Shown in pieces: positions 11,615 through 36,674 of a DNA stretch of 64,000 nucleotides. Each line of letters opens with the position of its first letter. The stretch's first letter is position 1. The DNA comes from Candidatus Zixiibacteriota bacterium (GTDB lineage: Bacteria; Zixibacteria; MSB-5A5; GN15; JAAZOE01). A model generated the notes under the pieces. It worked only from the letters and a program-made list of their open reading frames with translations, made no database searches and was not told where the DNA came from. The position numbers and the translations under genes were made by a program. The stretch is taken from contig JAGLON010000033.1 in NCBI GenBank assembly GCA_023138975.1, positions 81,396-145,395 on the forward strand, read 5' to 3'.

Positions 11615-14600
11615 ATGCACGGAGTATTTAAATTCAGAAAAATTGGACAGGCAGTAATAGGACTTCTTTGTACTGCCCTTTTATATAGTGTTTGCTTGGG
11701 GGGGACTACGCCCGTATTAGGAATTCGTGATAAAACGCCTGATGCCAGAGCTTTTATTAACGGGCATATGGTTATTTCTCCCACTGAACAGTTTGATAAT
11801 GGTATCTTGATTATCAAGGACGGTAAAGTTCTTGAAATCGGAACGGGTATTAAAATACCCGATGGAATTACTATCATCGACTTGGCTGGTAAGTCGATTT
11901 ACCCTGCTTTTATCGAGCCGTTTGGTGATTATGGGATTATAGATCATCGTGATAAAAAACAGAATAAGTACGGCAAGCCGGTTTATACGGCTGATCGCAT
12001 AGGGGGTAATGCATGGAATGAAGCGATTCATGCCGAAATAAACTGGTCACGATTTTTCAAGCCAGATAATGAAACATCCAATGAGTTACTGTCTCAGGGT
12101 TTTGCGATATCACAATCGGCCAAACAAGATGGGATATTTCGCGGAAGAAGCTGTGTCGTATTGCTGGGAGACGGATTACCGAACGACCTAATTCTTAACT
12201 CGCAAAGTGCCCATTTTATATCCTTCTCGAAAGGAAAATCAGTACAGGATTATCCTTCTTCACTTATGGGTAGTATAGCATTAATACGACAAACTCTATT
12301 TGACATCGAATGGTATAATCAAGCCCATACTGCATACAAGTATAATCCTGCTCAAAAAATGCCTGAATTCAACTCAGCCATAGAAGCTCTATCGAACATT
12401 TCAACTGATAGAATAATTATAGATGCCGGTGTCAAATCTCCGGGGTTACTGAGAGCGAAATCACTCCTTGATGAATTTGGTTTAACGGCATCTGTAATCG
12501 CCAGCGGGCGTGAGTATTGTCATATCAATGATGTGAAGGAATTTGCATCAAAGCTAATACTGCCTTTGGATTTTCCGGAAATGCCGGAGATTAATACTTT
12601 TGCAGATGAGCTGGATGTGACTTTGGCACAGCTGCGCCATTGGGAAAGTGCTCCATCTAACGCAATGGTTCTGGAGCAGAATGATGTAAAATTTTCATTT
12701 ACAACATACCGCCTGAAGAAAAAAGAGACATTTCTCACTAATCTGAGGAAGGCGGTCAAACGGGGTCTGTCTGAAGAAACGGCGTTGGCGTCACTGACCA
12801 TAACTCCTGCCGAAATATGCGGTATTGGAGATCTCGCCGGAACGTTAGAAACAGGGAAGCTTGCGAATTTCTTTATATGCGACGGCAATATATTTAATGA
12901 AAAATGTGAAATATACTCGGTCTGGACAGCGGGGAAAAAGCATGAGCTGAAAGCATTACCCAAAACTCTCTTTGCGGGCAAGTATGAATTGAAGGTCGGC
13001 GACGATAAGCTGATGCTTGAGCTTTCCGGTAAACCCTCGAAACTTACAGGAAAAGTCAAGCGGGACGAATGGAGTTCTGATCTCAAGAAGTTCGATATTG
13101 ATCGAAACAAAATCAGATTTTCCACGCCCATAGACAGCGGTAAGAACGCTGTCACAATCCGGTTTTCCGGGCGTAAAGATAAAAAGTTTATTACCGGCCG
13201 ATGCGTATATGCCAATGGTCTTGAAGCGAATTGGCAGGCAATCCGGGTCTCAGAATTGAAACCGGATACATCAGTCAAAGATGCCCGAAAGCCGGAAGCT
13301 TTCTTTGCGGCCACCACTTATCCGAATAAAGCTTTTGGCCCACAAGACCTTCCTGATCAAAAAGACATCTTAATAAAGAACGCCACTGTCTGGACAGCCG
13401 AGCAGGACGGAATCCTCAAGAACACAGACATCTTAATTGAAGATGGTAAATTCGTCCGGATTGGAACGGAAATTAAGGCGCCTTCAGGGATCATGGTTAT
13501 TGACGCTGGGGGAAAACATGTCACTCCCGGTATTATTGACGCACACTCTCATTTGGCCATTGCGGGTGATGTTAATGAGGGTACGCATGCGGTAACACCG
13601 GAAGTTCGAATAGGCGATGTTGTAAATCCTGAACAGGTGAATATTTATAGACAACTAGCCGGGGGCGTAACTGCTTGTCTGTCGCTTCATGGTTCGGCTA
13701 ATCCTATCGGCGGCCAATGTCAAGTTATCAAATTGCGTTGGGGAGCCAATGCCGAGGAGATGAAAGATAAGCAGGCGGCTGAGATTATCAAGTTCGCGTT
13801 AGGAGAAAACGTTAAGCAGAGCAACTGGGGTGAGAAATACAGAACACGCTATCCGCAATCAAGGCTGGGTGTCGAAGCAATAATGCGGGACGTTTTCCAG
13901 GCAGCTCTTGAATATGAGCAGGATTGGAAAAAATTCAATGCCCTGAGTAAGAAAGATAAGAAAAGAACGATTCCTCCGCACAAAAATATTGGTCTTGACG
14001 CAATGGTCAAGGTGCTCAATTCCGACATGATGGTGCATTGCCATTCGTATATGCAGGCCGAAGCGCTAATGCTTATGCGGTTAGCTGAAGAGTATGGCTT
14101 CGTCATTGATGTCTTGATACATAACCTTGAGGGATACAAAGTTGCCGATGAGATGGTGAAACATGGCGCCGGAACGACGACCTTTTCGGATTGGTGGGCC
14201 TACAAGTTTGAGGTCTATGACGCTATCCCGTACAATGCCAGTCTGATGGCGGAAAGAGGCGTATTGACTACCGTGAAATCGGACAATATCGATCTTGCCC
14301 GCCGTCTCAATCAGGAAGCGGCCAAAGTGATTCACTATGGTGGTATCTCTCCCGAAGAGGCAATCAAGATGATAACGATCAATGCCGCTATCCAATTGGG
14401 TATGGAGAAATACACCGGCAGTATTGCACCGGGCAAGGATGCTGATTTTGTCATCTGGAACGATTATCCGCTATCATCATATGCTAAGGCAGAACAAACC
14501 TGGATTGAAGGCCGAAAATATTTTGATATTGAAAGCGATAAAACCATCCGCAAGGAAATCAAAAAAGAAAGAAATAAACTCATTCAGAAGATAGTTGAAC

Positions 14601-14626
14601 ATAGCGCCAAGAACGGTACTAAATAG
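11615..14626 (+). CDS. Secreted double amidohydrolase-fold protein
   Basis: Signal peptide; two tandem amidohydrolase-like halves. The C-terminal half carries the metal-binding motif GIIDAHSHLAIAGD; the N-terminal half does not. Confidence 0.85.
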   Translation: MHGVFKFRKIGQAVIGLLCTALLYSVCLGGTTPVLGIRDKTPDARAFINGHMVISPTEQFDNGILIIKDGKVLEIGTGIKIPDGITIIDLAGKSIYPAFIEPFGDYGIIDHRDKKQNKYGKPVYTADRIGGNAWNEAIHAEINWSRFFKPDNETSNELLSQGFAISQSAKQDGIFRGRSCVVLLGDGLPNDLILNSQSAHFISFSKGKSVQDYPSSLMGSIALIRQTLFDIEWYNQAHTAYKYNPAQKMPEFNSAIEALSNISTDRIIIDAGVKSPGLLRAKSLLDEFGLTASVIASGREYCHINDVKEFASKLILPLDFPEMPEINTFADELDVTLAQLRHWESAPSNAMVLEQNDVKFSFTTYRLKKKETFLTNLRKAVKRGLSEETALASLTITPAEICGIGDLAGTLETGKLANFFICDGNIFNEKCEIYSVWTAGKKHELKALPKTLFAGKYELKVGDDKLMLELSGKPSKLTGKVKRDEWSSDLKKFDIDRNKIRFSTPIDSGKNAVTIRFSGRKDKKFITGRCVYANGLEANWQAIRVSELKPDTSVKDARKPEAFFAATTYPNKAFGPQDLPDQKDILIKNATVWTAEQDGILKNTDILIEDGKFVRIGTEIKAPSGIMVIDAGGKHVTPGIIDAHSHLAIAGDVNEGTHAVTPEVRIGDVVNPEQVNIYRQLAGGVTACLSLHGSANPIGGQCQVIKLRWGANAEEMKDKQAAEIIKFALGENVKQSNWGEKYRTRYPQSRLGVEAIMRDVFQAALEYEQDWKKFNALSKKDKKRTIPPHKNIGLDAMVKVLNSDMMVHCHSYMQAEALMLMRLAEEYGFVIDVLIHNLEGYKVADEMVKHGAGTTTFSDWWAYKFEVYDAIPYNASLMAERGVLTTVKSDNIDLARRLNQEAAKVIHYGGISPEEAIKMITINAAIQLGMEKYTGSIAPGKDADFVIWNDYPLSSYAKAEQTWIEGRKYFDIESDKTIRKEIKKERNKLIQKIVEHSAKNGTK

Positions 14627-14652
14627 AAATGAAACGTTTTGGAGTAATAGAT

Positions 14653-15939
14653 ATGCGGATAATAATTTACACTCTGTTGATTTTCATGATCGTCTCATTG
14701 GTACAGGCGCATGACTACGTTCCCGGAAAAATACAGGATCACCCGATTCTGTTGCGTGGTGGAACGGTTTATACTGTTTCAGATGGTATCAAAGAAAACA
14801 GTGATGTATTGTTTAACGACGGCCGCATTGTGGACATCGGGGAAAATATTATCGTGCCTGAAAATACCGAAATTATCAATGTTACCGGAAAACATATCTA
14901 CCCGGGACTAATTGCAGCTTATTCTTATATAGGTCTGGTCGAAATCGGTTCGGTACGGGCAACCAATGATAGACGAGAGATTGGTACGATTAATCCTAAT
15001 ATCTTGGCGCATATCGCCTACAACCCCGATTCGGAGATTATTCCCTCGGTCCGGTCTAACGGCATTACCACAGCCCTAATTGTCCCCGGTGGACGGCTGA
15101 TTACAGGAACCTCAAGTTTACTTAATCTGGATGGGTGGACATGGGAAGATGCGACAGAGAAATTAAATGTTGGCATGCATTTAATATGGCCGGCGGTTAA
15201 AGCGGTCAAAGGCTATGATGATAAGCGTTCATTAGAAGAAATAAAAAAAGAATTAAGAGAAAATCGAGAGGTTCTCTACGAGGCTTTTGATGACGCAAAA
15301 GTATATTATCTGGCTCAACAGGCTGATGCTTCGATAAAAAAAGATTTACGATGGGATGCTATGGTACCGGTTTTTGATAAGGAAATTCCGGTTTTTATCC
15401 AAGCCAATGATTACCGGCAGATTGATCAGGCCGTTCAATTTTCTAAAGACTATGACTTTAATATGATCCTGGTCGGGGGGCGTGATGCCTGGATGTGCCC
15501 TGAGCTTCTTAAGGACAACAAGATACCCGTTATCGTGGCTTGGACGCAGGCTTTACCAGGTCGTGAAGATGATGGCTATGATCTCAGATACAGTTTACCA
15601 GCACGATTATATGAAGCTGGTGTTAAATTCTGCATGGCCCAGGCAGGAGGAGGGTGGTCGCGTAATTTGCCGTTCCAGGCTGGTCAGGCAATCGCTTTTG
15701 GCTTACCTAAAGAAGAAGCGCTTCGGGCGCTAACCTTATCTGTGGCAGAGATTCTGGACGTCGATCAAAACTTAGGTTCTTTGGAGGTTGGGAAAAAAGC
15801 AACTATTATTGTATCGGATGGCGATATCTTTGATATCCTGACTCACAAGATTATTTATGAGTTTATTGAAGGCAAAAAAGTAGATCTCAATAATAAGCAC
15901 AAAGAACTGTACGAGAAATACCGTCAGAAATCTCTTTAA
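14653..15939 (+). CDS. Secreted amidohydrolase-family protein lacking the canonical HxH motif
   Basis: Likely start at M (14653), MRIIIYTLLIFMIVSLVQA signal peptide; IYPGLIAAYSYIGLVE where HxH is expected; conserved C-terminus GSLEVGKKATIIVSDGD. Confidence 0.75.
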   Translation: MRIIIYTLLIFMIVSLVQAHDYVPGKIQDHPILLRGGTVYTVSDGIKENSDVLFNDGRIVDIGENIIVPENTEIINVTGKHIYPGLIAAYSYIGLVEIGSVRATNDRREIGTINPNILAHIAYNPDSEIIPSVRSNGITTALIVPGGRLITGTSSLLNLDGWTWEDATEKLNVGMHLIWPAVKAVKGYDDKRSLEEIKKELRENREVLYEAFDDAKVYYLAQQADASIKKDLRWDAMVPVFDKEIPVFIQANDYRQIDQAVQFSKDYDFNMILVGGRDAWMCPELLKDNKIPVIVAWTQALPGREDDGYDLRYSLPARLYEAGVKFCMAQAGGGWSRNLPFQAGQAIAFGLPKEEALRALTLSVAEILDVDQNLGSLEVGKKATIIVSDGDIFDILTHKIIYEFIEGKKVDLNNKHKELYEKYRQKSL

Positions 15940-16018: not shown

Positions 16019-16981
16019 GTGAACCGATATCACAAAAACCCAATTATCACACGCGGTGATATACCTTCAATCAAGCCGCATTTGGTCGATGTCTCGTCCG
16101 TTTTCAATCCCGGTGCTGTAAAATTTCAAAACTCTTACTTATTACTTCTTCGTATTCAGAATCGTGGCCGAGAAACGTTTCTCATCTCAGCAACGAGTCG
16201 TGACGGCAAATCATTTGACATCAATGATAAAGTTATAACCTTCAGTGGCATAGAGAAGATTCCGGAGACCATCTATCACATTTATGATCCCCGCATTACG
16301 CACATTGGCGATACTTATTATATTGTTTTCGCGATTGATATCGATGGCGGCTGCCGGTTGGGCATCGCTAAAACTCGTAATTTTGAATCGTATAGCTTCT
16401 TAGGAATTGTTTCGGATAATGATTCACGCAACGGAGTGCTTTTTCCTGAAAAAATAAATAATCAGTTCTGTATGCTGGAACGCCCCAATAGCGTTAAAAA
16501 CAAAGGCAATGCTGGCGGAGGTGATGAAATCTGGCTTTCCGCATCAGAGGACTTGATTAAATGGAACAGGGTCGGTCCAATATTGACTGGCCGGGCGCAT
16601 TATTGGGATGAATTTATAGGTTCGGGGCCTCCGCCCGTAAAAACTACACAGGGATGGTTGCACATTTATCATGGGATAGCCTCTCATTTTTCCGCCGCCA
16701 GTATTTATCAGGCTGGTGTTGTCCTGCTTGATTTAGCCGATCCGTCGATAGTTATCGCGCGAGGGAAGTATAATATCCTTGAGCCACGAGAGCCGTATGA
16801 GCTTATCGGGCAGGTACCGAATGTCGTTTTCCCTACCGGATTGATTGTGGATGATTTTGACAATGACGGATTTGCCAAAAATAACAGCGAAGTAAAGGTT
16901 TACTACGGCGCGTCTGATTCATCGACTTGTCTGGCCACGACTACTATTAAAGATTTGTTGGATGCTTGCTATGATAAATAG
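16019..16981 (+). CDS. GH130 family glycoside phosphorylase/hydrolase
   Basis: GTG start; VFNPGAV, YDPRITHIGDTYYIVF, GSGPPPVKTTQGWLHIYHG and VPNVVFPTG motifs typical of GH130. Confidence 0.85.
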   Translation: MNRYHKNPIITRGDIPSIKPHLVDVSSVFNPGAVKFQNSYLLLLRIQNRGRETFLISATSRDGKSFDINDKVITFSGIEKIPETIYHIYDPRITHIGDTYYIVFAIDIDGGCRLGIAKTRNFESYSFLGIVSDNDSRNGVLFPEKINNQFCMLERPNSVKNKGNAGGGDEIWLSASEDLIKWNRVGPILTGRAHYWDEFIGSGPPPVKTTQGWLHIYHGIASHFSAASIYQAGVVLLDLADPSIVIARGKYNILEPREPYELIGQVPNVVFPTGLIVDDFDNDGFAKNNSEVKVYYGASDSSTCLATTTIKDLLDACYDK

Positions 16982-16994
16982 GGAGGATATTACG

Positions 16995-18164
16995 GTGAGA
17001 AAAGCAGTTTTTCTGTACGGCTTTATTGTTATAGTACTTAGCCTAAGTGCATGTAATCAAAACGGCTCGGATTCATCGTCTGCCAGAGATTTAATTAAAA
17101 AATCCGATAACACACTCCCTGTACCGCAGATTGATTTTAATCCTGAACAGTATGTCTGCTATCAAACCGGTCAGCCACTGAACATTGACGGCAAACTAGA
17201 TGAAAACGTGTGGGCAAAAGCACTCTGGACAAATGAATTTGTGGATATAGAAGGCGGCTTGAAACCTGTGCCGTATCTGAAAACCAGAGTCAAGATGCTG
17301 TGGGATGATAACTACTTTTATTGCGCCGCCGAAATGGAAGAACCGCATGTCTGGGCCAAGTTAAAGAAACGTGATGCGGTGATATATCATGATAATGATT
17401 TTGAGGTTTTCATAGATCCTGACGGAGATACTCACGAGTATTACGAACTCGAAGTAAATGCCTTGAACACGCAATGGGATTTATTCCTCGGTAAACCGTA
17501 CCGCGACGGCGGCCCGGCCATAAACGCGTGGGATATTCAAGGCCTCAAAACAGCCATTAGTATAAACGGAACACTGAATAATCCAAAAGACGTCGACAGG
17601 GGATGGTTGATTGAAATAGCTATCCCGTGGGAAGTTCTTAAGCAATGCGCTCACAAAGATGCTCCGCCAAGCGATGGTGATCAATGGAGAGTGAATTTCT
17701 CCCGGGTTCAATGGCAGACCGAAATAAAAAACGGGAAGTACATCAAGACCAAAGATTCCCTATCCGGAGACAACCTGCCGGAGAATAACTGGGTCTGGTC
17801 GCCACAGGGGTTGATTGCTATGCATTATCCTGAAATGTGGGGGATAGTCCAATTCTCCGCTTCGATTGCAGGCAGCGGTGTCGCAGTTTTTAGTTTCGAT
17901 GTTGATGAAGAAGCCAAATGGGAACTGCGGAAACTGTATTATGCCCAGCGGACGTTCAATATGCAATATGGTTTCTTTGCTGAAAACATAGAAGAATTGA
18001 ATTTGAAGAATCCCGATTTACCTGACTATCAATGGCCGCCTGTAATCAAGACAACCGCTAGCTTTTTCGAAGCGCGAATCAGCCGAACGGATGAGACGGG
18101 ATTCCTTTGTATTTCGCATGACGGCGATATTTGGTTTGAAAATATAACTCAAACCCGGAAGTAG
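16995..18164 (+). CDS. Carbohydrate-binding family 9-like lipoprotein
   Basis: Lipobox LSLSAC after KAVFLYGFIVIV; INIDGKLDENVWAKALW...VKMLWDDNYFYCAAEMEEPHVWA...DFEVFIDPDGDTHEYYELEVNALNTQWD. The ORF opens at 16962; GTG 16995 is a plausible start. Confidence 0.85.
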   Translation: MRKAVFLYGFIVIVLSLSACNQNGSDSSSARDLIKKSDNTLPVPQIDFNPEQYVCYQTGQPLNIDGKLDENVWAKALWTNEFVDIEGGLKPVPYLKTRVKMLWDDNYFYCAAEMEEPHVWAKLKKRDAVIYHDNDFEVFIDPDGDTHEYYELEVNALNTQWDLFLGKPYRDGGPAINAWDIQGLKTAISINGTLNNPKDVDRGWLIEIAIPWEVLKQCAHKDAPPSDGDQWRVNFSRVQWQTEIKNGKYIKTKDSLSGDNLPENNWVWSPQGLIAMHYPEMWGIVQFSASIAGSGVAVFSFDVDEEAKWELRKLYYAQRTFNMQYGFFAENIEELNLKNPDLPDYQWPPVIKTTASFFEARISRTDETGFLCISHDGDIWFENITQTRK

Positions 18165-18168
18165 AAGC

Positions 18169-20121
18169 ATGAATTTAGGCTTAGTAGACTGGCTCATAGT
18201 TGCCATCGCGTTAGTGTTTATGATTGTAACTGTTTCGGCCAGTAAGCGACTGATGAAAAGCGTTGCCGATTTTCTGGCTGCCGGGCGTTCTGCCGGGCGT
18301 TATGTTATCAGTGTCGCCAGCGGCGTAGCCGGGTTGGGAGCTATCACAGTTATCGGTAATCTTGAGATGAATCTGCTGGCGGGCTTTTCGATGGCCTGGT
18401 GGGGAATGACAATGGCGTTGGTTCTACTTGTCATCACCGTCTCAGGTTGGGTCATTTATCGTTTCCGGCAGACTCGCTCGCTTACGTTGGCGCAGTTTTT
18501 TGAGGTTCGTTATAGTCGAAATTTCCGCATTTTCACCGGCATTGTCGCCTTCTTATCCGGCCTGATAAACTTCGGCATCTTTCCTGCGGTGGGAGCCCGG
18601 TTCTTCATTTATTTTTGCGGTCTTCCACAATCATTTGAACTCATGGGATTATCTATCGTCACCTTTCCGCTGGTCATGATTCTACTTCTTGGAGTCTCAT
18701 TGTATTTCGTTTTCACTGGCGGGCAAATTGCGGTAATAATCGCGGATTTCTTTCAGGGTTTGTTCGTCAACATCATTTTTGTCATCATCATCGTCTATCT
18801 ATTTTTCACCTTTGACTGGGTACATATTTTCGAGGCATTGTCTTCGGCGCCTCAGGAAGCATCGCTAATAAATCCGTTTCATACCAGTCAGGTCGAGGAT
18901 TTTAATTTCTGGTATTTTCTTGTCGGTGTCTTTGGAGTGATGTATGGAACAATGTCGTGGCAGGGGACTCAAGGGTATAATGCCTCGGCCAAAAACGCCC
19001 ACGAAGCGAAAATGGGCGGTGTCCTGGCCGGATGGCGGGGGCTGCCTCAGACACTTTTGTTTTTATTCGTCCCGATTATTGCCTATACGGTATTGCATCA
19101 CCCTGATTTTGCTCATATTGCACAAGCGGTACATGATTCAATTGCCGGAGCCGGAACCGATGCCGTTCAGAGTCAGCTAAAAGTTCCGCTAGTACTTTCG
19201 CATATTTTACCGCGAGGATTAATTGGCGGCCTTGCAGCGGTTATGCTGGCGGCCTTTATCAGCACTCATGATTCATATCTGCATTCGTGGGGTTCTATTC
19301 TGGTGCAGGATGTGATTATGCCGTTCAGAAAGAAACCGTTCACGCCCAAACAGCATCTGAGAGCTCTGCGTCTGGCAATAACGTGCGTCGCCGTCTTTAT
19401 TTTCTTCTTCAGTCTTCTATTCAAGCAATCTGAATATATCTTCTTATTTTTCGCCATTACCGGCGCGATTTTTGCCGGAGGTTCCGGAGCGATTATCATC
19501 GGCGGCCTGTACTGGAAACGCGGAACAACCTCTGCCGCTTGGGCGGCGATGATAACCGGTTCTTCAATAGCAGTTGGGGGAATAATCATTCATCAATTAG
19601 TCGATAATTTCTTTATCAACGGTCAATGGTTCTGGATGATAAGCATGTTCGGCAGTTCGCTGGTATATATTGCTGTTTCTCTGTTAGGTAAAAAAGACGC
19701 GCGTGATATGGACAAGGTTCTCAAGCGCGGCAAATACGCGATTAAAGATGAAACTACAATTATCGACGCTGTTCCGTCAAAGGGCTGGAAAATTCTCGGT
19801 ATGGGAAAGGAATTCACGAAGGGCGACAAATTTATTTACATCATTAACTACATCTGGACCGGCGGGATGACAATTGTATTTTTGGCAGGAACGATTTATA
19901 ATCTCAATCATGAAGTGTCGGATCAAACCTGGCTGGAATTCTGGAAAATCTACATCGAAATTCAAGTTGTTCTGGCGGTCATCTCAATAATTTGGTTTAC
20001 CATTGGCGGATTTAAGGACATCAGAATCATGATCGCCAGACTTACAACCATGAAAAGAGATGAAGGCGATGACGGGTTTATTCATATTGATAATATAACG
20101 GGCGGGTCGGATCGTGAATAA
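18169..20121 (+). CDS. Sodium:solute symporter (SSS) family transporter
   Basis: Multi-TM, 650 aa; SVADFLAAGRSAGRYVISVASGVAGLGAITVIG and C-terminal GAIFAGGSGAIIIGGLYWKRGTTSAAWAAM. Confidence 0.92.
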   Translation: MNLGLVDWLIVAIALVFMIVTVSASKRLMKSVADFLAAGRSAGRYVISVASGVAGLGAITVIGNLEMNLLAGFSMAWWGMTMALVLLVITVSGWVIYRFRQTRSLTLAQFFEVRYSRNFRIFTGIVAFLSGLINFGIFPAVGARFFIYFCGLPQSFELMGLSIVTFPLVMILLLGVSLYFVFTGGQIAVIIADFFQGLFVNIIFVIIIVYLFFTFDWVHIFEALSSAPQEASLINPFHTSQVEDFNFWYFLVGVFGVMYGTMSWQGTQGYNASAKNAHEAKMGGVLAGWRGLPQTLLFLFVPIIAYTVLHHPDFAHIAQAVHDSIAGAGTDAVQSQLKVPLVLSHILPRGLIGGLAAVMLAAFISTHDSYLHSWGSILVQDVIMPFRKKPFTPKQHLRALRLAITCVAVFIFFFSLLFKQSEYIFLFFAITGAIFAGGSGAIIIGGLYWKRGTTSAAWAAMITGSSIAVGGIIIHQLVDNFFINGQWFWMISMFGSSLVYIAVSLLGKKDARDMDKVLKRGKYAIKDETTIIDAVPSKGWKILGMGKEFTKGDKFIYIINYIWTGGMTIVFLAGTIYNLNHEVSDQTWLEFWKIYIEIQVVLAVISIIWFTIGGFKDIRIMIARLTTMKRDEGDDGFIHIDNITGGSDRE

Positions 20122-23100
20122 GAAAAAGGAAGAGATTCTAATCGGCCGCATTGAGCGGTTTCGCGATAATATATCCCGCCGAATTCTCGGCGATAGCACT
20201 CAGCTTAAAGCTAAGTTCTATCATTGTCCTCAGCCGGTCGCATTTGAAGATAGATTGGCCGGCAAATATAAATCCATTGTTGATGGGCAGAGTTGGGGCA
20301 AAGCCTGGGACAGCGCATGGTTTCATCTGACCGGCCAAGTACCGCAATCATGGTGTGGAAATAAAGTCGTCGCTCAATTGGATTTTTCAGGCGAAGGACT
20401 TGTTTATAACGGCAAAGGGGAAATGCTTCAGGGAATTACTGACGGCTCGGTTTTCGATAAAGAGTTCAGCCGGGATGTCGTTCGGTTAATTGACAAATGT
20501 AAAGGCAATGAATCAATTGATTTATGGGTCGAAACGGCCGCGAATGGATTGTTCGGAGTTTTTACCGAACAGGATCCGGCCAAAGATTCCCCGAATCGAT
20601 ATGGCAGTTTTGACGCGCGCGTAAACTCGATTAGACTTTGTACCTTCGATGAGGAATTATGGCATTTCTGGCTTGATATAAAAATCCTGCACGGCTTGAT
20701 AAAAACTCTTCCGGCTAAAACTGTGCGTCGAGCCAGAATTATTCGTTGTGTGTCTGATACTATTGATGAATACGCCGATAACCGTGAAAATCTTCACGCA
20801 AGTCAGTTATTCTTAAATCAGGAATTGAAGAAAACTGCCTCAGCCTCTGATTTGTCGGTCACCGCCGTTGGACACGCACATATTGATACCGCATGGTTAT
20901 GGCCGGTTAAAGAAACAATTAGAAAATGCGCCCGGACCTTCTCCAGCCAAATTGATTTAATAGAAAAATATCCCGATTATATTTTTGGAGCCTCTCAACC
21001 TCAACATTATGCCTTTGTCAAAGAGCACTATCCCGCTCTATATGAAAAAATCAAAACGGCCGTTAAAGCGGGAAGATGGGAAGTGCAGGGGGGCATGTGG
21101 GTCGAGGCTGATTGCAATCTTATATCCGGTGAATCTATGATTCGCCAAATTCTGCACGGAAAGAACTTCTTCAAAGATGAATTCAAAATTGATGTAAAAA
21201 ACCTCTGGCTGCCAGATGTCTTTGGATACTCGGCGGCCTTGCCGCAAATCCTAAAAAAATCCGGCATTGACTATTTCCTGACTCAAAAAATGTCCTGGAA
21301 CCAGTTTAATGAAATGCCCCACCATAGCTTTATGTGGCAGGGGCTGGACGGCAGTGAAGTGCTGACCCATTTCCCCCCGGAGAATAATTACAACAGCCAG
21401 CTCGGGACTGATTACCTCGTTCCGGCGCAGGAGCATTTTAAGGAAAAAGAATTTCTTGATGAATTTATCAGCCTGTTCGGAGTCGGCGATGGTGGAGGTG
21501 GACCAAAAGAAGAAAATATCGAGCTTGGTCTCCGGATGAAAAGCCTGGAGTCGGCTCCGAGGGTATCGTTCGGTACTGCCGAAGGTTTTTTTGAGCGCCT
21601 CAATAAACACAAAGATAAACTGCCTCGCTGGGTTGGAGAATTATATCTGGAATTGCACCGAGGCACATTGACATCGCAGGCAAAAGTAAAAAAAGCGAAT
21701 CGAAGACTCGAACATGAACTTAAAACGATTGAATGGCTCTATTCCTGTCTGCCTCTGGATGATTATCCGAGAGAACAACTTGATTCAATCTGGAAAAAAG
21801 TTCTGCTAAACCAGTTCCATGACATCATTCCGGGATCGAGCATTACCGAAGTATACCGAGTTACCCATGACGAGCATGAGAGCGCATTGAGTGAATGCAA
21901 TGCGCTAATAGATAAATTTGCTTTAAACTTTTTTGATTCGGATGAAGACTCGCTCACGGTGGCAAATATCCTGCATTATCCGTATAAAGGCGCGGTGGAG
22001 TTGCCATCTGACTGGAGCCGGTATCGGGTGACGGATGCTGAAGGAAACGATTGTACGATTCAAAACGAAGCTTGCAAAGCGATAGCCTTGGTGGAAATTC
22101 CGCCTTATTCGATGATAGTTTTAAAGCGGGCGGAGAAAACAGACGAGAAGGGCGCCTCCGATTGCGGCCTTATTCTCGAAAACGATTTGATCCGATATGA
22201 GTTTAACGGAAACGGACAGCTTATCCGAGCCCTCGATAAAGAATTTGGAAAAGAAATATTAGAGCCTGAAAAAAACGGCAACGTCTTGACCCTGTACGAC
22301 GATCATCCTAATAACTGGGATGCCTGGGATATCGATTTCTACTATGAGAACTGTGCCATAGAGAGCTTTGAAGCCAATAACTTTTCGAGTATCGCCGATG
22401 GAAAAGTAAGAAAAGGTCTGAAATTCACCGGTAAAATAGGGAAATCCGAGATTTCTCAATCGGTGTTTCTTGAATCAACTTCCAAACGGCTCGGTTTTTA
22501 CACAAAAGTAGATTGGCGCGAGAAACACCGAATGCTGAGAGTCGCATTTCCGGTAGCGGTTCGAGCCGAACAGGCCTCTTATGACATTCAATACGGATAC
22601 GTCAGGAGAAACACGCATCGCAATACATCCTGGGATATGGCGCAATTTGAAGTTGCCGGACATAAGTATGCCGATTTATCTGACAATGACTATGGCGTAG
22701 CCCTGCTTAACGATTGTAAATACGGATATAAAATAAATAACAATACAATTGATCTGAATCTTCTACGCTCGCCAAATTATCCCGACCCGGATGCGGACAT
22801 GGGCGAGCATGAATTCACTTATTGTTTGTATCCACATGCCGGAGATTTAATCCGCTCGGATGTTATTGCGGAAGCATCCATACTAAATCAGCCACCACTG
22901 GTTTTTAACAATTGCAAGATCGAAATGACTCGTTTTCCGTGGAGGCTTGAAGGAAATGGGCTGTCGCTGGAGGTTGTCAAGGCGGCGGAAAAAGAAGAAT
23001 GCCTTATAATACGTATTATAGAAACGCTGGGGAAACATTCTAAAGGCACACTCTATATTGATGATAAAGATCTACAAGTATTGGAAACTGATTTGATGGA

Positions 23101-23194
23101 ATGGTTTGATAAAGATTCACTGGACGGTATAAACAAATTTAAGCTTTTATTAGAACCGTTTGAAATCAGATCATATAAGCTGACAAGGAATTAG
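20114..23194 (+). CDS. GH38 alpha-mannosidase
   Basis: GTG start overlapping the symporter stop by 8 nt; GHAHIDTAWLWPVKETIRKCARTF, GRWEVQGGMWVEADCNLISGESMIRQ, LWLPDVFGYSAALPQI. No signal peptide seen. Confidence 0.95.
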   Translation: MNKKKEEILIGRIERFRDNISRRILGDSTQLKAKFYHCPQPVAFEDRLAGKYKSIVDGQSWGKAWDSAWFHLTGQVPQSWCGNKVVAQLDFSGEGLVYNGKGEMLQGITDGSVFDKEFSRDVVRLIDKCKGNESIDLWVETAANGLFGVFTEQDPAKDSPNRYGSFDARVNSIRLCTFDEELWHFWLDIKILHGLIKTLPAKTVRRARIIRCVSDTIDEYADNRENLHASQLFLNQELKKTASASDLSVTAVGHAHIDTAWLWPVKETIRKCARTFSSQIDLIEKYPDYIFGASQPQHYAFVKEHYPALYEKIKTAVKAGRWEVQGGMWVEADCNLISGESMIRQILHGKNFFKDEFKIDVKNLWLPDVFGYSAALPQILKKSGIDYFLTQKMSWNQFNEMPHHSFMWQGLDGSEVLTHFPPENNYNSQLGTDYLVPAQEHFKEKEFLDEFISLFGVGDGGGGPKEENIELGLRMKSLESAPRVSFGTAEGFFERLNKHKDKLPRWVGELYLELHRGTLTSQAKVKKANRRLEHELKTIEWLYSCLPLDDYPREQLDSIWKKVLLNQFHDIIPGSSITEVYRVTHDEHESALSECNALIDKFALNFFDSDEDSLTVANILHYPYKGAVELPSDWSRYRVTDAEGNDCTIQNEACKAIALVEIPPYSMIVLKRAEKTDEKGASDCGLILENDLIRYEFNGNGQLIRALDKEFGKEILEPEKNGNVLTLYDDHPNNWDAWDIDFYYENCAIESFEANNFSSIADGKVRKGLKFTGKIGKSEISQSVFLESTSKRLGFYTKVDWREKHRMLRVAFPVAVRAEQASYDIQYGYVRRNTHRNTSWDMAQFEVAGHKYADLSDNDYGVALLNDCKYGYKINNNTIDLNLLRSPNYPDPDADMGEHEFTYCLYPHAGDLIRSDVIAEASILNQPPLVFNNCKIEMTRFPWRLEGNGLSLEVVKAAEKEECLIIRIIETLGKHSKGTLYIDDKDLQVLETDLMEWFDKDSLDGINKFKLLLEPFEIRSYKLTRN

Positions 23195-23196
23195 TT

Positions 23197-24267
23197 ATGC
23201 GGGCAGTTATTTATGTATTATCAATAGTAGTTGCATTTACGATTGTTTTCTGTTCAATGACGTTTGCCCTTGATATCTCTGATTTCACATTTGAGACAAA
23301 GGTGACGGTATTTTCTGGAAATGATATCCATTTTAATCAGGAAGAACCCTCTAAATTCGCGTCCGATTCGGTTTTATCGCTCGATAACGGCCGGGAGATT
23401 TACCGGGACATAGAGCTTCCTTCTTTTGATAAACAAACCCGCATCACGGCCCATCTCGAAATTCATCCCCTTCCCAAAGACGATCTTAATATGCATGATA
23501 ATTGGGATAGGGCGGGAAACATACGACTTGCCAAAGAGGGTATGGAAGATATCGAGATCGTGAAGTTTATAACGGCCTATGGCGGAGAATCTGTCTATGA
23601 TGTTGATGTTTCCCATTTGGCGAAAGTCCTTCAGGGAAAGTGTAAAATAATAGGGTTTATTGATACCTGGGCATCGCCGGGCTGGAAAGTTGATTTTTCC
23701 TTGACCTATGAAACGGTTGATGACAGCACCGGTGATGAAGTTTACATCGATTATATCTATAATCCTCAATGGGTTCAGGGTCTTATATTCGAGCCGTCAT
23801 ATAATCTTGAGAAAAACGGTGAGACTGGTATTGAAGTAGAAATAGAAATCCCGGAGGGATTAAACCGTGTCGTTTTGAACTATTTTGTTTCAGGACATTG
23901 TACTGATGGTAATGGAGCCGATGAATTTGTTCCCAAGGACAATGTTATATACGTCGATGGGGAGCCTGTTTTCCGTTTCCAGCCGTGGCGCGATGATTGT
24001 ACTCAGTTTCGTTCAAATAATCCATATACTCGCCGATGGTCAAGTGGCTATTGGTCGTCCGACTATAGTCGCAGCGGTTGGTGTCCCGGAGATAAAGTAG
24101 ATCCGGTTCAGGTCGACTTAACTGATTATTTAAAGCCCGGTAAACATGTAATTCGTTTCCATATCGAGAATGTTCGCCCAAAAGATGAAAAGGGCAATAT
24201 GGGGTACTGGAGGATATCGGGACATCTATTGGGTTGGAACAAAAAGGCTAATCTTGTTGCGTGGTAG
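23197..24267 (+). CDS. PNGase F-like peptide-N-glycosidase (two-domain), secreted
   Basis: Signal peptide; NWDRAGNIRL...VKFITAYGG..YDVDVSHLAKVLQGKCKIIGFIDTWASPGWKVDFSLTYE and SRSGWCPGDKVDPVQVDL match my memory of PNGase F (WDRYANVYV...ETW...VDFDIVYG; DRAGWCPG). Confidence 0.75.
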   Translation: MRAVIYVLSIVVAFTIVFCSMTFALDISDFTFETKVTVFSGNDIHFNQEEPSKFASDSVLSLDNGREIYRDIELPSFDKQTRITAHLEIHPLPKDDLNMHDNWDRAGNIRLAKEGMEDIEIVKFITAYGGESVYDVDVSHLAKVLQGKCKIIGFIDTWASPGWKVDFSLTYETVDDSTGDEVYIDYIYNPQWVQGLIFEPSYNLEKNGETGIEVEIEIPEGLNRVVLNYFVSGHCTDGNGADEFVPKDNVIYVDGEPVFRFQPWRDDCTQFRSNNPYTRRWSSGYWSSDYSRSGWCPGDKVDPVQVDLTDYLKPGKHVIRFHIENVRPKDEKGNMGYWRISGHLLGWNKKANLVAW

Positions 24268-24297
24268 TTATTACTGCCTCATTTGGGCTATATCGTC

Positions 24298-25785
24298 ATG
24301 AATATTGTTCCAAAACCGGTTTCAGTTGAATATTCTGATGGGGTATTCTATCTTTCATCCAATACCAGAGTTGTTACAAATAATACTCCCAATTTTTTCA
24401 AAGATTATCTGTGCAGCCAATGTGAAGCATTATCCGGGATCAAGCCGTGCGGACAGGGAAACAAGGCCAACGAAATTGTCTTGATTCTCGACGAATCTAT
24501 ACCGTCAAAAATTACTGACGAATCATATGAATTGACTGTCACTTCAGTAAGTATAACAATGCGGGCTGCTCAACCTGCTGGTCTGTTTTATGGTATCCAG
24601 TCTTTCCTGCAACTGTTGACTAATAATGTAAAGGCAGAGAGGAACAGCGTACAAATAGAGTGTCTTGTTATCAAGGACTCACCTGTTTTTGTCTGGCGAG
24701 GTATGCACCTTGATGTCAGTCGACATTTCTTTTCGGTTAACGATATTAAACGATATATAGATATTCTGGCTTTACATAAAATCAATCGATTTCACTGGCA
24801 CCTGACAGATGATCAGGGCTGGCGCATCGAGATTAAGCAATATCCATTGCTAACCAATATTGGATCCAACCGGGTGGAAAATGAAGGTTCTCTTTATGGC
24901 GGGTATTATTCTCAGGAAGAAATCGCCGAAGTTGTTGCCTATGCGAGTGACCGCTTCATTACTATTGTACCGGAAATCGAAATGCCGGGCCATGCGCAAG
25001 CGGCCTTAGCTGCATATCCGGAGTTAGTCTGTACCAAGAAGGACGTTAATGTATGGAATGAATGGGGGATATCCGAGCATGTTTATTGTGCGGGGAATGA
25101 CGATGTTTTTAGTTTTTTGCAAAATGTTTTAGATGAAATTGTCTCGTTATTCCCCGGGGAGTATATTCATATCGGCGGTGATGAGTGCCCTAAAGAGGCT
25201 TGGAAATCTTGTGAGCTTTGTCAAAAGAGGATTGAAGAATTACACCTTGAAAACGAAAACCAGCTGCAAAGCTACTTTATAAAGAGAATTGCGGCATTTC
25301 TTAATAGTAGAAAAAAATTGGTAATCGGCTGGGATGAGATAGCCGAAGGCGGTCTGGAAAAAAACGCCATAGTAATGGTTTGGCAAGGAATGGATAAGGC
25401 CCGGGAGGCATTACGGCAGGGAAACAAAGTAATAATGTGCCCGACTTCGCATTGTTATTTTGATTATTCTCAGGCCGAGGAAAATGAGCCGAAAGCGTTC
25501 AATGCCCAATTGGCACTTGAGTCAGTCTATGACTTTGATCCGTTATCTCCGGTTGATGGTCTAATTAATTCAGAATTGGTACTAGGGGGGCAGGGGAATA
25601 TCTGGACAGAGTATATCTCTGATTTTAAGCATCTTCAGTACATGGCCTTACCTCGTATGAGCGCCATGGCTGAAGTGCTCTGGACGGGTGAAAAAAATAA
25701 AGACTTCAGTAGTTTTGCAATGCGTCTGAAACAATTGACAAAGCTATTTGATAAACTTGGAATAAACTACCGACCGCTTGATTAG
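24298..25785 (+). CDS. GH20 beta-N-acetylhexosaminidase
   Basis: Start revised to ATG 24298; RGMHLDVSRHFF, HWHLTDDQGWRIEIKQYP, HIGGDECPKEAW (catalytic DE pair). No signal peptide seen. Confidence 0.95.
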   Translation: MNIVPKPVSVEYSDGVFYLSSNTRVVTNNTPNFFKDYLCSQCEALSGIKPCGQGNKANEIVLILDESIPSKITDESYELTVTSVSITMRAAQPAGLFYGIQSFLQLLTNNVKAERNSVQIECLVIKDSPVFVWRGMHLDVSRHFFSVNDIKRYIDILALHKINRFHWHLTDDQGWRIEIKQYPLLTNIGSNRVENEGSLYGGYYSQEEIAEVVAYASDRFITIVPEIEMPGHAQAALAAYPELVCTKKDVNVWNEWGISEHVYCAGNDDVFSFLQNVLDEIVSLFPGEYIHIGGDECPKEAWKSCELCQKRIEELHLENENQLQSYFIKRIAAFLNSRKKLVIGWDEIAEGGLEKNAIVMVWQGMDKAREALRQGNKVIMCPTSHCYFDYSQAEENEPKAFNAQLALESVYDFDPLSPVDGLINSELVLGGQGNIWTEYISDFKHLQYMALPRMSAMAEVLWTGEKNKDFSSFAMRLKQLTKLFDKLGINYRPLD

Positions 25786-27502: not shown

Positions 27503-27541
27503 GTGACTTAGGAATGGTCATCTAAAGTCACGGTTTTTTTG
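27503..27541 (+). terminator. Intrinsic terminator/attenuator in the leader of the TonB-dependent receptor
   Basis: GTGACTTAG...CTAAAGTCAC hairpin followed by CGG and T7; upstream promoter-like TTGACT at 27437 and TATTTT at 27461. Confidence 0.45.
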
Positions 27542-27664
27542 GGTAGAGAGATAGGAAAGGTTTGGGTGCAAGGTTTGTCCATAGATAACAAATCTTTATA
27601 CAAAGCATTCCCTCACACCAACGCAATGCGCATAGATAATCATCCCAGTGAGGAGGGTTTCGAT

Positions 27665-30600
27665 ATGTCGAGCCGTCGTAACAAGCCGATTTTTTCGGTT
27701 ATTGTGTTATTAGTGCTGATTTCTCTTTTGGCGGGGTCAGTCTTTTCCGCCTCGGTCGGTCGAATAAAGGGGACAATCACAGACAAAAAAACCGGAGAAA
27801 GCCTGTTCGGTGTTTCGGTCCAAATTGAAGGCACTAAAATGGGGGGAAAGAGTGATTTTGATGGAAACTACATCATTCTTTCGGTTTCTCCCGGTACCTA
27901 TAATTTGCTTTTTACATCGATGGGTTATGAGAAAATTCGCATGACCGGTGTTGAAGTCAATACTGATGTCACCTCTGAGCGCAATATTCAGATGAAATCG
28001 ACTATTCTCGAAACCGATAAAGTCGTAGAGGTTGTTGGAACCAGAAAAGGTATTGATTTTAATCAGACCATGGATATTTCCATTAAGAGCCAGGCAGAAA
28101 TTTTGGCGGCACCAGTCGCCAATGTTGATGAGCTGTTATCAATGGAAACGGGTATTACCCGTGACGCCGACGGTCAGCTTCACATTCGAGGCGGTCGTGC
28201 TGGCGAAACAACATATCTTGTTGACGGTGTGAACTTCTCCGATCCGTTAGGTGGTAGAGCTCCTGTCGATGCTGGTGTCAACATCTCATCGTCAGCGGTG
28301 CTTGAGCTTAAGGTTATTAAAGACGGTTTCGATCCTGAGTATGGTGAAGCACTTTCCGGTGTTGTAACGATTACCTCGCCAAAGGGATCACCTGATAAAA
28401 CCAGCTCCCGAATAAACTATTATACTGATGATTTCGGAAGCGCTGATTTAAACAAATTCTCAGAAAATTATGACTTGCTTGAATTCTCACTCAGCGGTCC
28501 AGATCCCTTTTTTACCAGCCGTATTTTGCCGGCTTTGGGTATCAACTACTTTGAAGATAAAGATTTTACTTTTTATATAAGTAGCCGCGCTCAAAAAACT
28601 GACAGCCGTACTCCATACTGGAGATATAATACTCCGGCTACTCAGAAGGAGTTCACTGGATTTAATCTTCTTGGGATCAATGTTCCCGACCGTCAGGAAA
28701 ACAGTTACAACCTTGGTATGACTCTTGCCTTCAATCCGACAGCGAATATGGAAGTGAAGGCTTTGTATAAAGGTAGTTGGTCTAACTGGACTAACTTCAC
28801 TTGGGAGCACCGGTTCTCGCCGGCAACCGCTCCAATTTCAGATTACACTACGAGTACATTTTCTTTGCAGTTAAAGCAGATTCTCAGTAAATCTTCAGAC
28901 TATGAGATTAACTTGTCCTACTGGGGTTCGCGTTTTTCCATGAAGCCGGGTGACCCGAATCATCCCGGACAAGGACTCAATCCGGATGATTTTCTTTTTG
29001 CCGATGAGTATGAAACCTATGATGATGTTAACGACAATTATCAGTACGACAGTTATGAGCCGTTTTTAAATATTTTCCCTGATTCAGTCCAGTGGGGCTC
29101 AATCTGGATTCCTGAACGCAATGCAACCGATGTTGTTGTTTCTACAGACAATCAGGTCGGCGGGCCTTGGAACCCGATGTTTGATATTAATAATAATGGT
29201 ATTATAGATGCCTATGAAGGTGAGCCGTTTGCTGATATGAACCGCAACGGTATCTGGGATAAAGGAGATAAGCTTACCAGAGATATCAATGGTAACCGGA
29301 CATACGATGATTTTTATCGTGATGTCACGACTCCAACCTGGACATCTCGTGAAGAACCTTATATTGATGGTGATTCGAGTCTGGGTGAAAACTTTGTTGA
29401 TATTAACCGCAACGGTGTTTACGATCCGGGTATTGATCGCTTTATAACAGCTTTAGATCCGGCTGTTAATATGGATATCAATCGCGATAATGAGTATACC
29501 GGTCCGAATCCGCTCCTATGGGAACCTGGTATTCCTTTTATTGATTATAACGGTAATGGTGTGTTTGATGCGCCTAATAATCATTATGATCCAGGTGAAC
29601 CATATATTGATATAAATAAAAACGGTAAGCATGATTTGGGCGGCGACAATAATACCGCGTTCTTAAACTACGGCTTTTTACAGTCCGGCGAATCTAACCG
29701 ATGGCTTCATGAGTCGGTCGATAAACTTACCGCAAAAGGTAATTTCAAAAAAGCTATTGGTAATGCTCATGAGATCAAGGCGGGATTTGAATTCCGCAAT
29801 GAGAAAGTTGCTGTTGAAGATATTCAAGGGCTACAAAGACGGAATGATGAGTCCATTGGCGATGGCTATCCTTTTGAAGGCCGCGGCCGAATTCGGGATT
29901 TTTATTCCCGCACACCGAATATCCTAATCTTTTATTTCCGCGACAAAATCGAATATGGCTCCCTTGTCGCATCACTCGGTATGCGTGCTGACCTCTTTTT
30001 CCAAGCGGACTTAAAAGGCTCTCAGACAATTCAGGATAGAACCGGTCATAATATTCAAGATATTAGAAATAAATTCTCGCCGCGAGTATCTATCAACTAC
30101 CCGATTTCAGAACGCGCGATGATTCGATTTAACTATGGCCATTTCTATGAATTACCTAGTTACACACGAATGTTCCGTACCTCGAATCCGTACGAAACCG
30201 GAAGTTTATCACTGGTCGGTAACCCCAATCTTGATTACACCAAGACGATTAACTATACTTTCGGTGTGAACTATGCGTTCACCGATGAGTATTCAGTCAA
30301 AATGTCCGGTTTCTATAAAGATTACTTTGATATGATCGCGACTACTGCTTTTAAAGTTAACGGTATTACTCAGTTCTCATATTATGATAATACTGACTAT
30401 GCTCGCGTTCGCGGATTTGAAATGGAGCTTACTCGGGAAGCCGCCAGGTTTATTAACGGTACTCTGAGTTACGAGTATTCGTTTGCATATGGTAAATCAT
30501 CTTCCGACGCCGCCAACTATGATGATGAGGTTGCTGGTGGTGATATTTCGATTGATGAAAACCCGCTTGGCTGGGATATCCGCCATCGTGTTTCATTGTG

Positions 30601-31036
30601 GCTGCAGCTTTACTTTACCGATAGAGATCATCCGAAACTGTTTGGCATTTCAATTCCTAATAACTGGGATATGTCGGTTTTCTGGCGTTTCCAAACCGGA
30701 TTCCCGTTCACCCCGGCTAATAACTTCCCGTATATGGAGCTTGACGTTGGTGAGAAACCGCAAACAAACTCAATGCGTTTGCCTTCCACTGCACAGACCG
30801 ATATTAAAATGCATAAGAGATTCAGAATCTCTGGCATGCAGTACTCCGTTCAGCTGTGGATAAATAATTTATTTAATAATGAAAATGTCGTATCGGTACA
30901 TTCCAGTACCGGCCGCCCGGACACTAATAATAACCCGGGCAACGATATAATTAATGGAGGAACTGAATTCCAGGCCAACCCGAGATCCTGGGGCAGAGCG
31001 CGCCAGATTATTCTTGGATTCGGAGTACAGTTCTAA
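27665..31036 (+). CDS. TonB-dependent receptor with N-terminal CarboxypepD_reg-like domain and DxNxNGxxD repeats
   Basis: Start revised to ATG 27665 (signal peptide). IKGTITDKKTGESLFGVSVQIEGTKMGGKSDFDGNYIILSVSPGTYNL; plug LRGGRAGETTYLVDGVNFSDP; barrel ending GRARQIILGFGVQF. Confidence 0.92.
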   Translation: MSSRRNKPIFSVIVLLVLISLLAGSVFSASVGRIKGTITDKKTGESLFGVSVQIEGTKMGGKSDFDGNYIILSVSPGTYNLLFTSMGYEKIRMTGVEVNTDVTSERNIQMKSTILETDKVVEVVGTRKGIDFNQTMDISIKSQAEILAAPVANVDELLSMETGITRDADGQLHIRGGRAGETTYLVDGVNFSDPLGGRAPVDAGVNISSSAVLELKVIKDGFDPEYGEALSGVVTITSPKGSPDKTSSRINYYTDDFGSADLNKFSENYDLLEFSLSGPDPFFTSRILPALGINYFEDKDFTFYISSRAQKTDSRTPYWRYNTPATQKEFTGFNLLGINVPDRQENSYNLGMTLAFNPTANMEVKALYKGSWSNWTNFTWEHRFSPATAPISDYTTSTFSLQLKQILSKSSDYEINLSYWGSRFSMKPGDPNHPGQGLNPDDFLFADEYETYDDVNDNYQYDSYEPFLNIFPDSVQWGSIWIPERNATDVVVSTDNQVGGPWNPMFDINNNGIIDAYEGEPFADMNRNGIWDKGDKLTRDINGNRTYDDFYRDVTTPTWTSREEPYIDGDSSLGENFVDINRNGVYDPGIDRFITALDPAVNMDINRDNEYTGPNPLLWEPGIPFIDYNGNGVFDAPNNHYDPGEPYIDINKNGKHDLGGDNNTAFLNYGFLQSGESNRWLHESVDKLTAKGNFKKAIGNAHEIKAGFEFRNEKVAVEDIQGLQRRNDESIGDGYPFEGRGRIRDFYSRTPNILIFYFRDKIEYGSLVASLGMRADLFFQADLKGSQTIQDRTGHNIQDIRNKFSPRVSINYPISERAMIRFNYGHFYELPSYTRMFRTSNPYETGSLSLVGNPNLDYTKTINYTFGVNYAFTDEYSVKMSGFYKDYFDMIATTAFKVNGITQFSYYDNTDYARVRGFEMELTREAARFINGTLSYEYSFAYGKSSSDAANYDDEVAGGDISIDENPLGWDIRHRVSLWLQLYFTDRDHPKLFGISIPNNWDMSVFWRFQTGFPFTPANNFPYMELDVGEKPQTNSMRLPSTAQTDIKMHKRFRISGMQYSVQLWINNLFNNENVVSVHSSTGRPDTNNNPGNDIINGGTEFQANPRSWGRARQIILGFGVQF

Positions 31037-31057
31037 GTTAAAGATGATTCAAGGCTT

Positions 31058-32059
31058 ATGCCGACTAGATATAGAATCGATGGGAGAATGCAGATGTCAT
31101 GCAAAGTAAAATCTTCGGCTGGTAAATGGACCGTTTTACTGTCCTTCGCCATCTTGGCCGTATTAGTTAGCCTTTCCGGTCAGGCCTTTGGTCAGGCCAA
31201 GGTAGGTACAGCCGGTGCCAAGTTTCTTGATATTGGAATATCAGCTCGGGCAATGGGAATGAGTGAAGCGTATTCGGCGATTGCCAATGATATTTCGGCT
31301 GTTTATTACAACCCGGCCGGGCTGACTCAGATTTATTCCCGGGAAGCCATGTTTACACATATTGACTATCCGGCTGATATTAATTATGAATTCGCCGCCG
31401 TTGCTTTCCCGTGGGAAGCCGCGTCGGGAGTTATTGCTTTTTCGTTCTATAATCTGAGACCGGGTGAAATTCCGCTCACTACATATGCCAATCCGGAAGG
31501 TACCGGTGAAATGTTCTTTGCCAATGATTATGCCATTACAATCACATATGCGCGTAGTTTGACTGAGCATTTCTCTCTGGGTACTACATTTAAGGCTATT
31601 GGCCAATACTATGATAATGAATCAGCAACCGGTTGGGCGGCTGACGTTGGTACCATTTATGATACCGGCTATCGAGGCTTTAAGATAGCCATGAGTATTA
31701 TGAATTTCGGACCGGATATGAAAATGATAACTCAGGAGTATCCGTTGCCGATCAACTTCAAATTCGGTAGTTCTTTCAATTTTATAGAAAGCCCGGATCA
31801 TTTAGCCACATTTGCTCTCGAAGGTGCTCACCCATCGGATAACCTTGAGCAGTATAATGCCGGTATCGAATATTGGTTTCATGATAAATTCTCCCTCAGA
31901 GTTGGAAATAGATTTAATTATGACACCGACGGATTTACCGCCGGCGCTGGAATGAAAATGCCTTTCGGAGAAACCGTTGAAATGCGGATAGATTATAGTT
32001 ATCAGGATTTTGGTTTCTTACGCGAAGTTCATCGATTCTCACTAGCGATGGCGTTTTAA
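31058..32059 (+). CDS. PorV/PorQ family outer membrane protein
   Basis: VGTAGAKFLDIGISARAMGMSEAYSAIANDISAVYYNPAGLTQI. Start may be the internal M at 31091. Confidence 0.9.
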   Translation: MPTRYRIDGRMQMSCKVKSSAGKWTVLLSFAILAVLVSLSGQAFGQAKVGTAGAKFLDIGISARAMGMSEAYSAIANDISAVYYNPAGLTQIYSREAMFTHIDYPADINYEFAAVAFPWEAASGVIAFSFYNLRPGEIPLTTYANPEGTGEMFFANDYAITITYARSLTEHFSLGTTFKAIGQYYDNESATGWAADVGTIYDTGYRGFKIAMSIMNFGPDMKMITQEYPLPINFKFGSSFNFIESPDHLATFALEGAHPSDNLEQYNAGIEYWFHDKFSLRVGNRFNYDTDGFTAGAGMKMPFGETVEMRIDYSYQDFGFLREVHRFSLAMAF

Positions 32060-32069
32060 GGAGTGAGGC

Positions 32070-34220: not shown

Positions 34221-34238
34221 GAAGAATTAGTTCTAAAT

Positions 34239-34271
34239 AAAAAAAGCCCCGTTTTTTACGGGGCTTTTTTT
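34239..34271. terminator. Bidirectional intrinsic terminator between convergent genes
   Basis: AAAAAAAGCCCCGTTTTTTACGGGGCTTTTTTT. Confidence 0.9.
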
Positions 34272-34278
34272 GTTGGGA

Positions 34279-36426: not shown

Positions 36427-36674
36427 TATAAATTGTTGTTACTATGCAAGAAATATCACTATGCATTTTCATTCACTTCATTTCAAGCAGGCCAGTGCAT
36501 AACTAATAAGATGAAATGTTTCTACAACTGGCAATCTAATAGTTACTTATGGATATATATGTGCATCCATATGCATATCTGCCGTTCAAAAAGTGCACAA
36601 TTATCTACCGATTTTCATATGGCACCACAGTTGCTCTAATACTCAGTGGAACTACTTTTTGAGGAGGCAAGACA

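Follow-up and report, generated by a model that had tools for sequence, protein, structure and literature searches.

Can members of the uncultured phylum Zixibacteria live on the N-glycans of glycoproteins? The question is raised by six genes of a Zixibacteria MAG (4.15 Mb, 94% complete), which lie in the window, the whole stretch of 64,000 nucleotides of contig 36 that was analysed. The six open reading frames occupy positions 16019-25785:

16019..16981, + strand: GH130 protein, 320 aa, predicted to be cytoplasmic (Pfam GH130, 2.9e-46)
16962..18164, + strand: CBM9-like lipoprotein, 400 aa (CBM9_1, 9.2e-13; lipobox LSAC)
18169..20121, + strand: SSS sodium/solute symporter, 650 aa (SSF, 1.8e-21; TIGR00813, 3.2e-29)
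20114..23194, + strand: GH38 alpha-mannosidase of the cytosolic Ams1 type, 1026 aa (GH38N, 1.5e-91; GH38C, 2.4e-62)
23197..24267, + strand: PNGase F-family amidase, 356 aa (N-glycanase_C, 3e-36; N-glycanase_N, 5.3e-12)
24283..25785, + strand: GH20 beta-N-acetylhexosaminidase (Pfam, 4.3e-121)

The spacing between consecutive genes is -20, +4, -8, +2 and +15 nt. The last value, for the interval between the PNGase and GH20 genes, becomes 30 nt if GH20 begins at ATG 24298 rather than at TTG 24283, and the ATG is the more likely start in view of its context. Gaps of 79 and 107 nt flank the operon. All six proteins scored above the Pfam cut-off for their main family, which bears out both the tight co-directional packing and the six family identities that had been proposed in an earlier note made from the sequence alone. 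The same note had the PNGase-like protein and the CBM9 lipoprotein as the only exported ones. Inspection of hydropathy and lipoboxes, used here in place of SignalP, agreed with this: N-terminal signal-like segments were seen in these two proteins and not in the GH130, GH38 and GH20 proteins, and homologues displayed the same pattern.

We hypothesized that the locus is a Zixibacteria N-glycan utilisation operon, and estimate the probability of this reading at about 0.7. What is proposed below on activities, substrate, transporter cargo and the sequence of steps is deduced from the observed gene identities and order, their conservation, the catalytic residues and the localisation signals. The enzymes are of known kinds; what is unusual is how they are combined, the kind of importer that accompanies them and the alteration seen in one of them.

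The pathway would start outside the cytoplasm with the PNGase, whose N-terminus carries an export signal-like segment. This protein contains both the N and the C domain of N-glycanases, each above the Pfam cut-off, and among solved structures it comes closest to PNGF-II, the Bacteroides PNGases and PNGase F. Fifteen homologues went into an AF2 model (pLDDT 78.7), and on comparison of this model with the PDB the top 18 matches were all PNGases or PNGase-like proteins (E 1.2e-22 to 5.9e-15). Three residues are of particular relevance:

23506..23508, + strand: codon of Asp104, equivalent of the catalytic Asp60 of PNGase F (alignment with 1pnf)
23662..23664, + strand: codon of Asp156, at the Glu118 position of PNGase F (alignment including 1pnf)
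23923..23925, + strand: codon of Glu243, in an ADEF motif (aligned to the DEF motif of PNGF-II and 7zgn)

All three are invariant across 15 PNGase homologues, and we take Glu243 to correspond to the catalytic Glu206 of PNGase F. Domains, fold and catalytic residues agree in placing the protein in the PNGase F family, as previously proposed, and amidase activity is predicted. As to its specificity, type I PNGases reject core alpha-1,3-fucose. The Glu118 position is occupied by Asp in group 1 Bacteroides PNGases, one of which cleaves N-glycans of the complex and high-mannose types and leaves those of plants uncut, and by Gly in type II enzymes, which accept core alpha-1,3-fucose (PMC9522356). 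Because Asp156 stands at this position, as in the group 1 Bacteroides enzymes, the window PNGase is predicted to be type I-like. It would thus free glycans lacking core alpha-1,3-fucose from glycoproteins or glycopeptides, its substrates being high-mannose, paucimannose or simple complex glycans.

A search of plasmids gave only distant PNGase matches (24-32%), and a contig scan, which reaches close relatives only, gave just three loci, all from Zixibacteria/FCB. No GH38, GH130 or SSS homologue was found close to the PNGase locus of Persicobacter. The phylum also has longer PF09113 proteins (about 590-730 aa; L020-L032), which make up a second subfamily. One further PNGase match (G002:C49:993-1391, L043) contains one in-frame TAA, possibly due to a broken gene or an assembly error.

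An alpha-mannosidase, an enzyme acting on the core beta-mannose and a beta-N-acetylhexosaminidase cover the linkages of a PNGase-released high-mannose glycan. The first of these roles would fall to the GH38 protein, which comprises an Ams1-like_1st domain followed by the GH38 N, mid and C domains and has Ams1 itself as its closest PDB entry (7vqo, 2e-160). It shares with Ams1-type GH38 alpha-mannosidases the full-length domain architecture and the lack of a signal, also noted in its homologues, but differs from them in being encoded in a bacterial operon. The GH20 protein, with its catalytic and GH20b domains (closest PDB entry 6q63, 4.7e-137), is an ordinary member of its family without a signal; it would split chitobiose and remove antennary GlcNAc.

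The GH130 protein, the only one in the whole MAG, would take the core beta-1,4-mannose off Man-GlcNAc2, by phosphorolysis or, if inorganic phosphate is no longer bound, by hydrolysis. Its nearest PDB entries are TM1225 (4.2e-54) and UhgbMP (4.7e-42), and its AF2 model (pLDDT 92.8) best matched the folds 1vkd and 4udg. The operon enzymes form a clade of their own near GH130_2, consisting of the window protein and nine others that are 54-62% identical to it. The phosphate site was assessed in an alignment of 26 members from the phylum with TM1225, UhgbMP and UhgbMS. For positions other than Asp104, we use what we take to be the UhgbMP residue numbers. The Asp104 anchor of this numbering is from PMC10619541. 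One codon stands out:

16613..16615, + strand: codon of Phe199 of GH130, at the phosphate-site Lys212 of UhgbMP (26-member alignment)

The ten operon-type enzymes retain the equivalents of Tyr103, Asp104, Arg150, Arg168, His231 and Tyr242, the catalytic aspartate with its adjacent tyrosine being as expected for GH130_2. The position of Lys212 is occupied by Leu in six of them, by Phe in the window enzyme, by Tyr in one and by Arg in two, those of G065 and G036, i.e. by a non-basic residue in 8/10, and the loop is one residue shorter, with the deletion directly before this position. Lysine is present there in 16/16 distant GH130s of the phylum and in the GH130_2 references; UhgbMS has Arg. Compared with UhgbMP, BT1033 and TM1225, to which it is 34-37% identical in the fold alignment, the operon enzyme has the same fold, the same Tyr103-Asp104 pair, two phosphate-site arginines, the histidine and the tyrosine, but in most of its clade a non-basic residue has taken the place of the phosphate-site lysine.

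Three basic residues bind phosphate in GH130 phosphorylases, whereas in the known GH130 hydrolases none of the three is present and carboxylates take their place (PMC4599007). In the window enzyme, two of the three are conserved arginines and the third is Phe. With Lys212 lost, yet the two arginines, His, Tyr and Asp kept, its sequence departs both from that of a textbook phosphorylase and from that of a BT3780-type hydrolase; the latter assignment is weakened by the two retained arginines. Could it nevertheless be a hydrolase, i.e. a beta-1,4-mannosidase? A non-basic F, L or Y at the Lys212 position of most operon enzymes, accompanied by the one-residue deletion, while 16 distant relatives keep the lysine, would fit with this. 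Yet the equivalents of Arg150, Arg168, His231 and Tyr242 are preserved, Arg occupies the Lys212 position in two members of the clade, and the carboxylates and complete loss of basic residues that mark the known hydrolases argue against it, so that we consider a hydrolase unlikely. We favour a phosphorylase with an altered phosphate site. Of the phosphorolysis proposed in the earlier note, the family and the catalytic Asp, two Arg, His and Tyr stood, while the phosphate-site lysine proved to be gone; the reaction is accordingly plausible, not assured. A second, distant GH130 group of the phylum (L067-L082; 30-35% identity to the operon enzyme) has Glu for the Tyr preceding the catalytic Asp, keeps Lys212 and resembles beta-1,2 types.

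How would the glycan reach these enzymes? The CBM9 protein, which has a hydrophobic stretch followed by the lipobox LSAC (a lipobox is found in most, not all, of its homologues), would hold it at the envelope. The sole transporter encoded in the operon is the SSS protein, with about 14 transmembrane segments predicted from hydropathy; its SSF domain is above the Pfam cut-off and its TIGR00813 score below the cut-off for that model (102 vs 184 bits). We infer that it carries glycans into the cell with Na+, as the released glycan or as trimmed fragments. Among the points that speak against the N-glycan model are the missing phosphate-site lysine of GH130 and the fact that the nearest solved relatives of the symporter, SGLT1 (2.7e-7) and vSGLT (3.1e-5), are monosaccharide carriers; the others, treated below, are the lack of an outer-membrane importer in the operon, the NagA and NagB results and the uncoupled divergence of the PNGase. 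The symporter might indeed import only monosaccharides (mannose or GlcNAc), the glycans reaching the cytoplasmic enzymes via an unlinked importer. This is a serious possibility, against which we lean. No gene of the operon is better conserved than that of the symporter (68-80% identity across operons), which also co-occurs with GH38, and since GH38, GH130 and GH20 are devoid of export signals, some oligosaccharide must reach the cytoplasm. Whole Man9GlcNAc2 is, to our knowledge, far above the size of any cargo of the SSS family, so that trimming ahead of import is likely, at least where a GH99 enzyme is present (see below). A precedent for small oligosaccharides may be found in ToaA, which we take to be a member of the SSS family. 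Expression of this symporter's gene, toaA, in E. coli improves the use of depolymerised alginate (PMC5266763), which also argues against an import restricted to monosaccharides. Plasmids yielded only distant SSS matches (about 26% identity or less). One related SSS frame (L038:3994-6108 in G065) is 704 aa long and has an extra stretch that splits the match.

If the genes function together, they should also be found together elsewhere. Operon markers were detected in 16/132 Zixibacteria genomes, frequently in the same order. The complete order GH130-CBM9-SSS-GH38-PNGase-GH20 recurs in G065, with a GH99 gene inserted between CBM9 and SSS, and in G040, where an overlapping reverse frame masks CBM9 and SSS in one listing and a second listing shows both. 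The conserved neighbourhood anticipated in the earlier note is thus found in relatives. The order is kept without a GH20 gene adjoining the PNGase gene in G111 and G070, and without a PNGase gene inside in G036 and G066, the PNGase of G066 being on a separate contig. Further fragments of the operon occur in the phylum, many of them stopping at contig edges. Marker genes co-occurred with p values of 2.5e-5 to 1.7e-13 (hypergeometric, 132 genomes, kinship ignored): SSS (13 carriers) and GH38 (15) share 12 genomes (p 1.7e-13), GH38 and GH130 (10 carriers) share 10 (p 9.6e-12), and SSS and PNGase (18 carriers) share 9 (p 1e-6). This co-occurrence and the repetition of the gene order in other genomes indicate that the order is not due to chance.

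The genes added in relatives bear on the substrate. GH99, an endo-enzyme acting on alpha-mannan and N-glycans, was found in only 2/132 genomes, both times inside the operon between CBM9 and SSS, and both proteins have lipobox N-termini, i.e. are lipoproteins. Extra inserts or neighbours are GH38-like in L033 and L039; GH20 is adjoined in G002 and G037 by convergent GH3, DUF4838 and GH29 genes; and a C25-peptidase-cluster gene pair, one of which was scanned, precedes GH130 in G065. The GH99, extra GH38-like, GH29/GH3 and C25 peptidase genes support an alpha-mannose-rich N-glycan as the substrate.

The partnership with the PNGase appears less strict. Pairwise identities of GH130, GH38 and GH20 track one another (r 0.74-0.77; 0.76 for GH38-GH20), but those of PNGase and GH38 do not (r 0.01, in a small sample), and several genomes carry the PNGase alone or the rest of the operon alone. 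The PNGase may therefore be a looser partner, joining and leaving a core unit. We considered the possibility that the operon serves mainly for alpha-mannan from fungi or algae, or for other glycoconjugates rich in mannose, with the PNGase as an accessory and the symporter importing mannose or small manno-oligosaccharides. This uncoupled divergence, the GH99 and additional GH38-like genes of the relatives and five core carriers in which no close PNGase was detected would be in keeping with such a function. Yet mannan offers nothing for GH20 or PNGase to act on, the MAG contains no GH92, the PNGase gene is inside the operon in several genera, and the PNGases that are absent may have been lost to contig breaks. 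Mannan as the main substrate thus seems improbable to us, and N-glycans remain our preferred reading. The 79% identity of the symporter from G111, a genome of another family, illustrates that identity does not follow taxonomy; this suggests horizontal transfer, a suggestion weakened by the 9% contamination of G111.

The system had also been described as complete, from release through import to catabolism. Targeting of N-glycans was borne out by the families, residues and neighbourhood, and neither of the two results that the earlier note had regarded as fatal to its model was obtained; completeness was overstated, as no outer-membrane importer was identified in the operon and neither NagA nor NagB in the MAG. 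NagB had no match in the whole 94% complete MAG and NagA none over the cut-off, similar proteins being far below it, so that complete catabolism is not supported. The missing genes for GlcNAc handling may reflect another route, recycling or a location in the missing 6% of the genome. No GH92, GH18 or SusC/D had been reported at the locus, and the whole MAG gave no match to GH92, GH18, GH99 or SusD-like_3 (PF14322); judged by this one SusD model, the locus would not be a Bacteroidota-type PUL.

The closest published analogue is the N-glycan core locus of Cutibacterium acnes, for which a cytoplasmic GH38/GH5_18/GH20 core pathway was proposed and where a search for PNGase F genes had a negative outcome (PMC6160142). 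Both loci encode a cytoplasmic Ams1-like GH38, a core beta-mannose enzyme, a signal-less GH20 and an adjoining importer, but GH5_18, an ABC importer and release by GH18 in C. acnes (PMC6160142) are replaced by GH130, SSS and PNGase F in the Zixibacteria operon. With the N-glycan loci of Bacteroides it shares the PNGase F family, and GH130, GH29 and GH3 genes are found near some group 2 PNGase genes; unlike this MAG, which is without a SusD-like_3 or GH92 match, the Bacteroides loci have SusC/D and GH92 (PMC9522356). GH38 would stand in for the GH92 of these loci. A full-text search of the open-access literature retrieved no paper linking Zixibacteria with N-glycan use and none on PNGase-GH38-symporter operons.

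The operon suggests that N-glycans from glycoproteins serve this phylum as a nutrient, with two testable departures from known systems, the import of oligosaccharides by a sodium symporter and a GH130 devoid of the usual phosphate-site lysine. Greatest interest attaches to what the symporter carries and to the nucleophile site of the GH130. A stronger version would make the operon a self-standing N-glycan system independent of SusC/D, in which N-glycan oligosaccharides enter through an SSS of new specificity and the core beta-mannose is cleaved by GH130 enzymes of a new clade whose nucleophile site has been rebuilt; it is put forward only tentatively and is rather unlikely to hold in full. As glycan tools, new PNGases of the type I-like kind and new enzymes acting on core beta-mannose would be useful.

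Neighbouring genes were also considered. Upstream of the operon (11615-15939), the window encodes two exported amidohydrolase-family proteins, homologues of which adjoin the operon or the PNGase gene in G070 (L035) and G066 (L034). Because this proximity to the PNGase gene or the operon is limited to three genomes from a single family, they were not adopted as pathway members. Downstream, a TonB receptor (27539-31036) and a PorV-like protein were dropped as operon members: two unrelated genes intervene, and neither accompanies the operon in relatives. Signs of a type IX secretion system are seen in the region 27539-39590, where this receptor, which has a carboxypeptidase-like domain, and the PorV-like protein are encoded along with a subtilase carrying a Por secretion tail.
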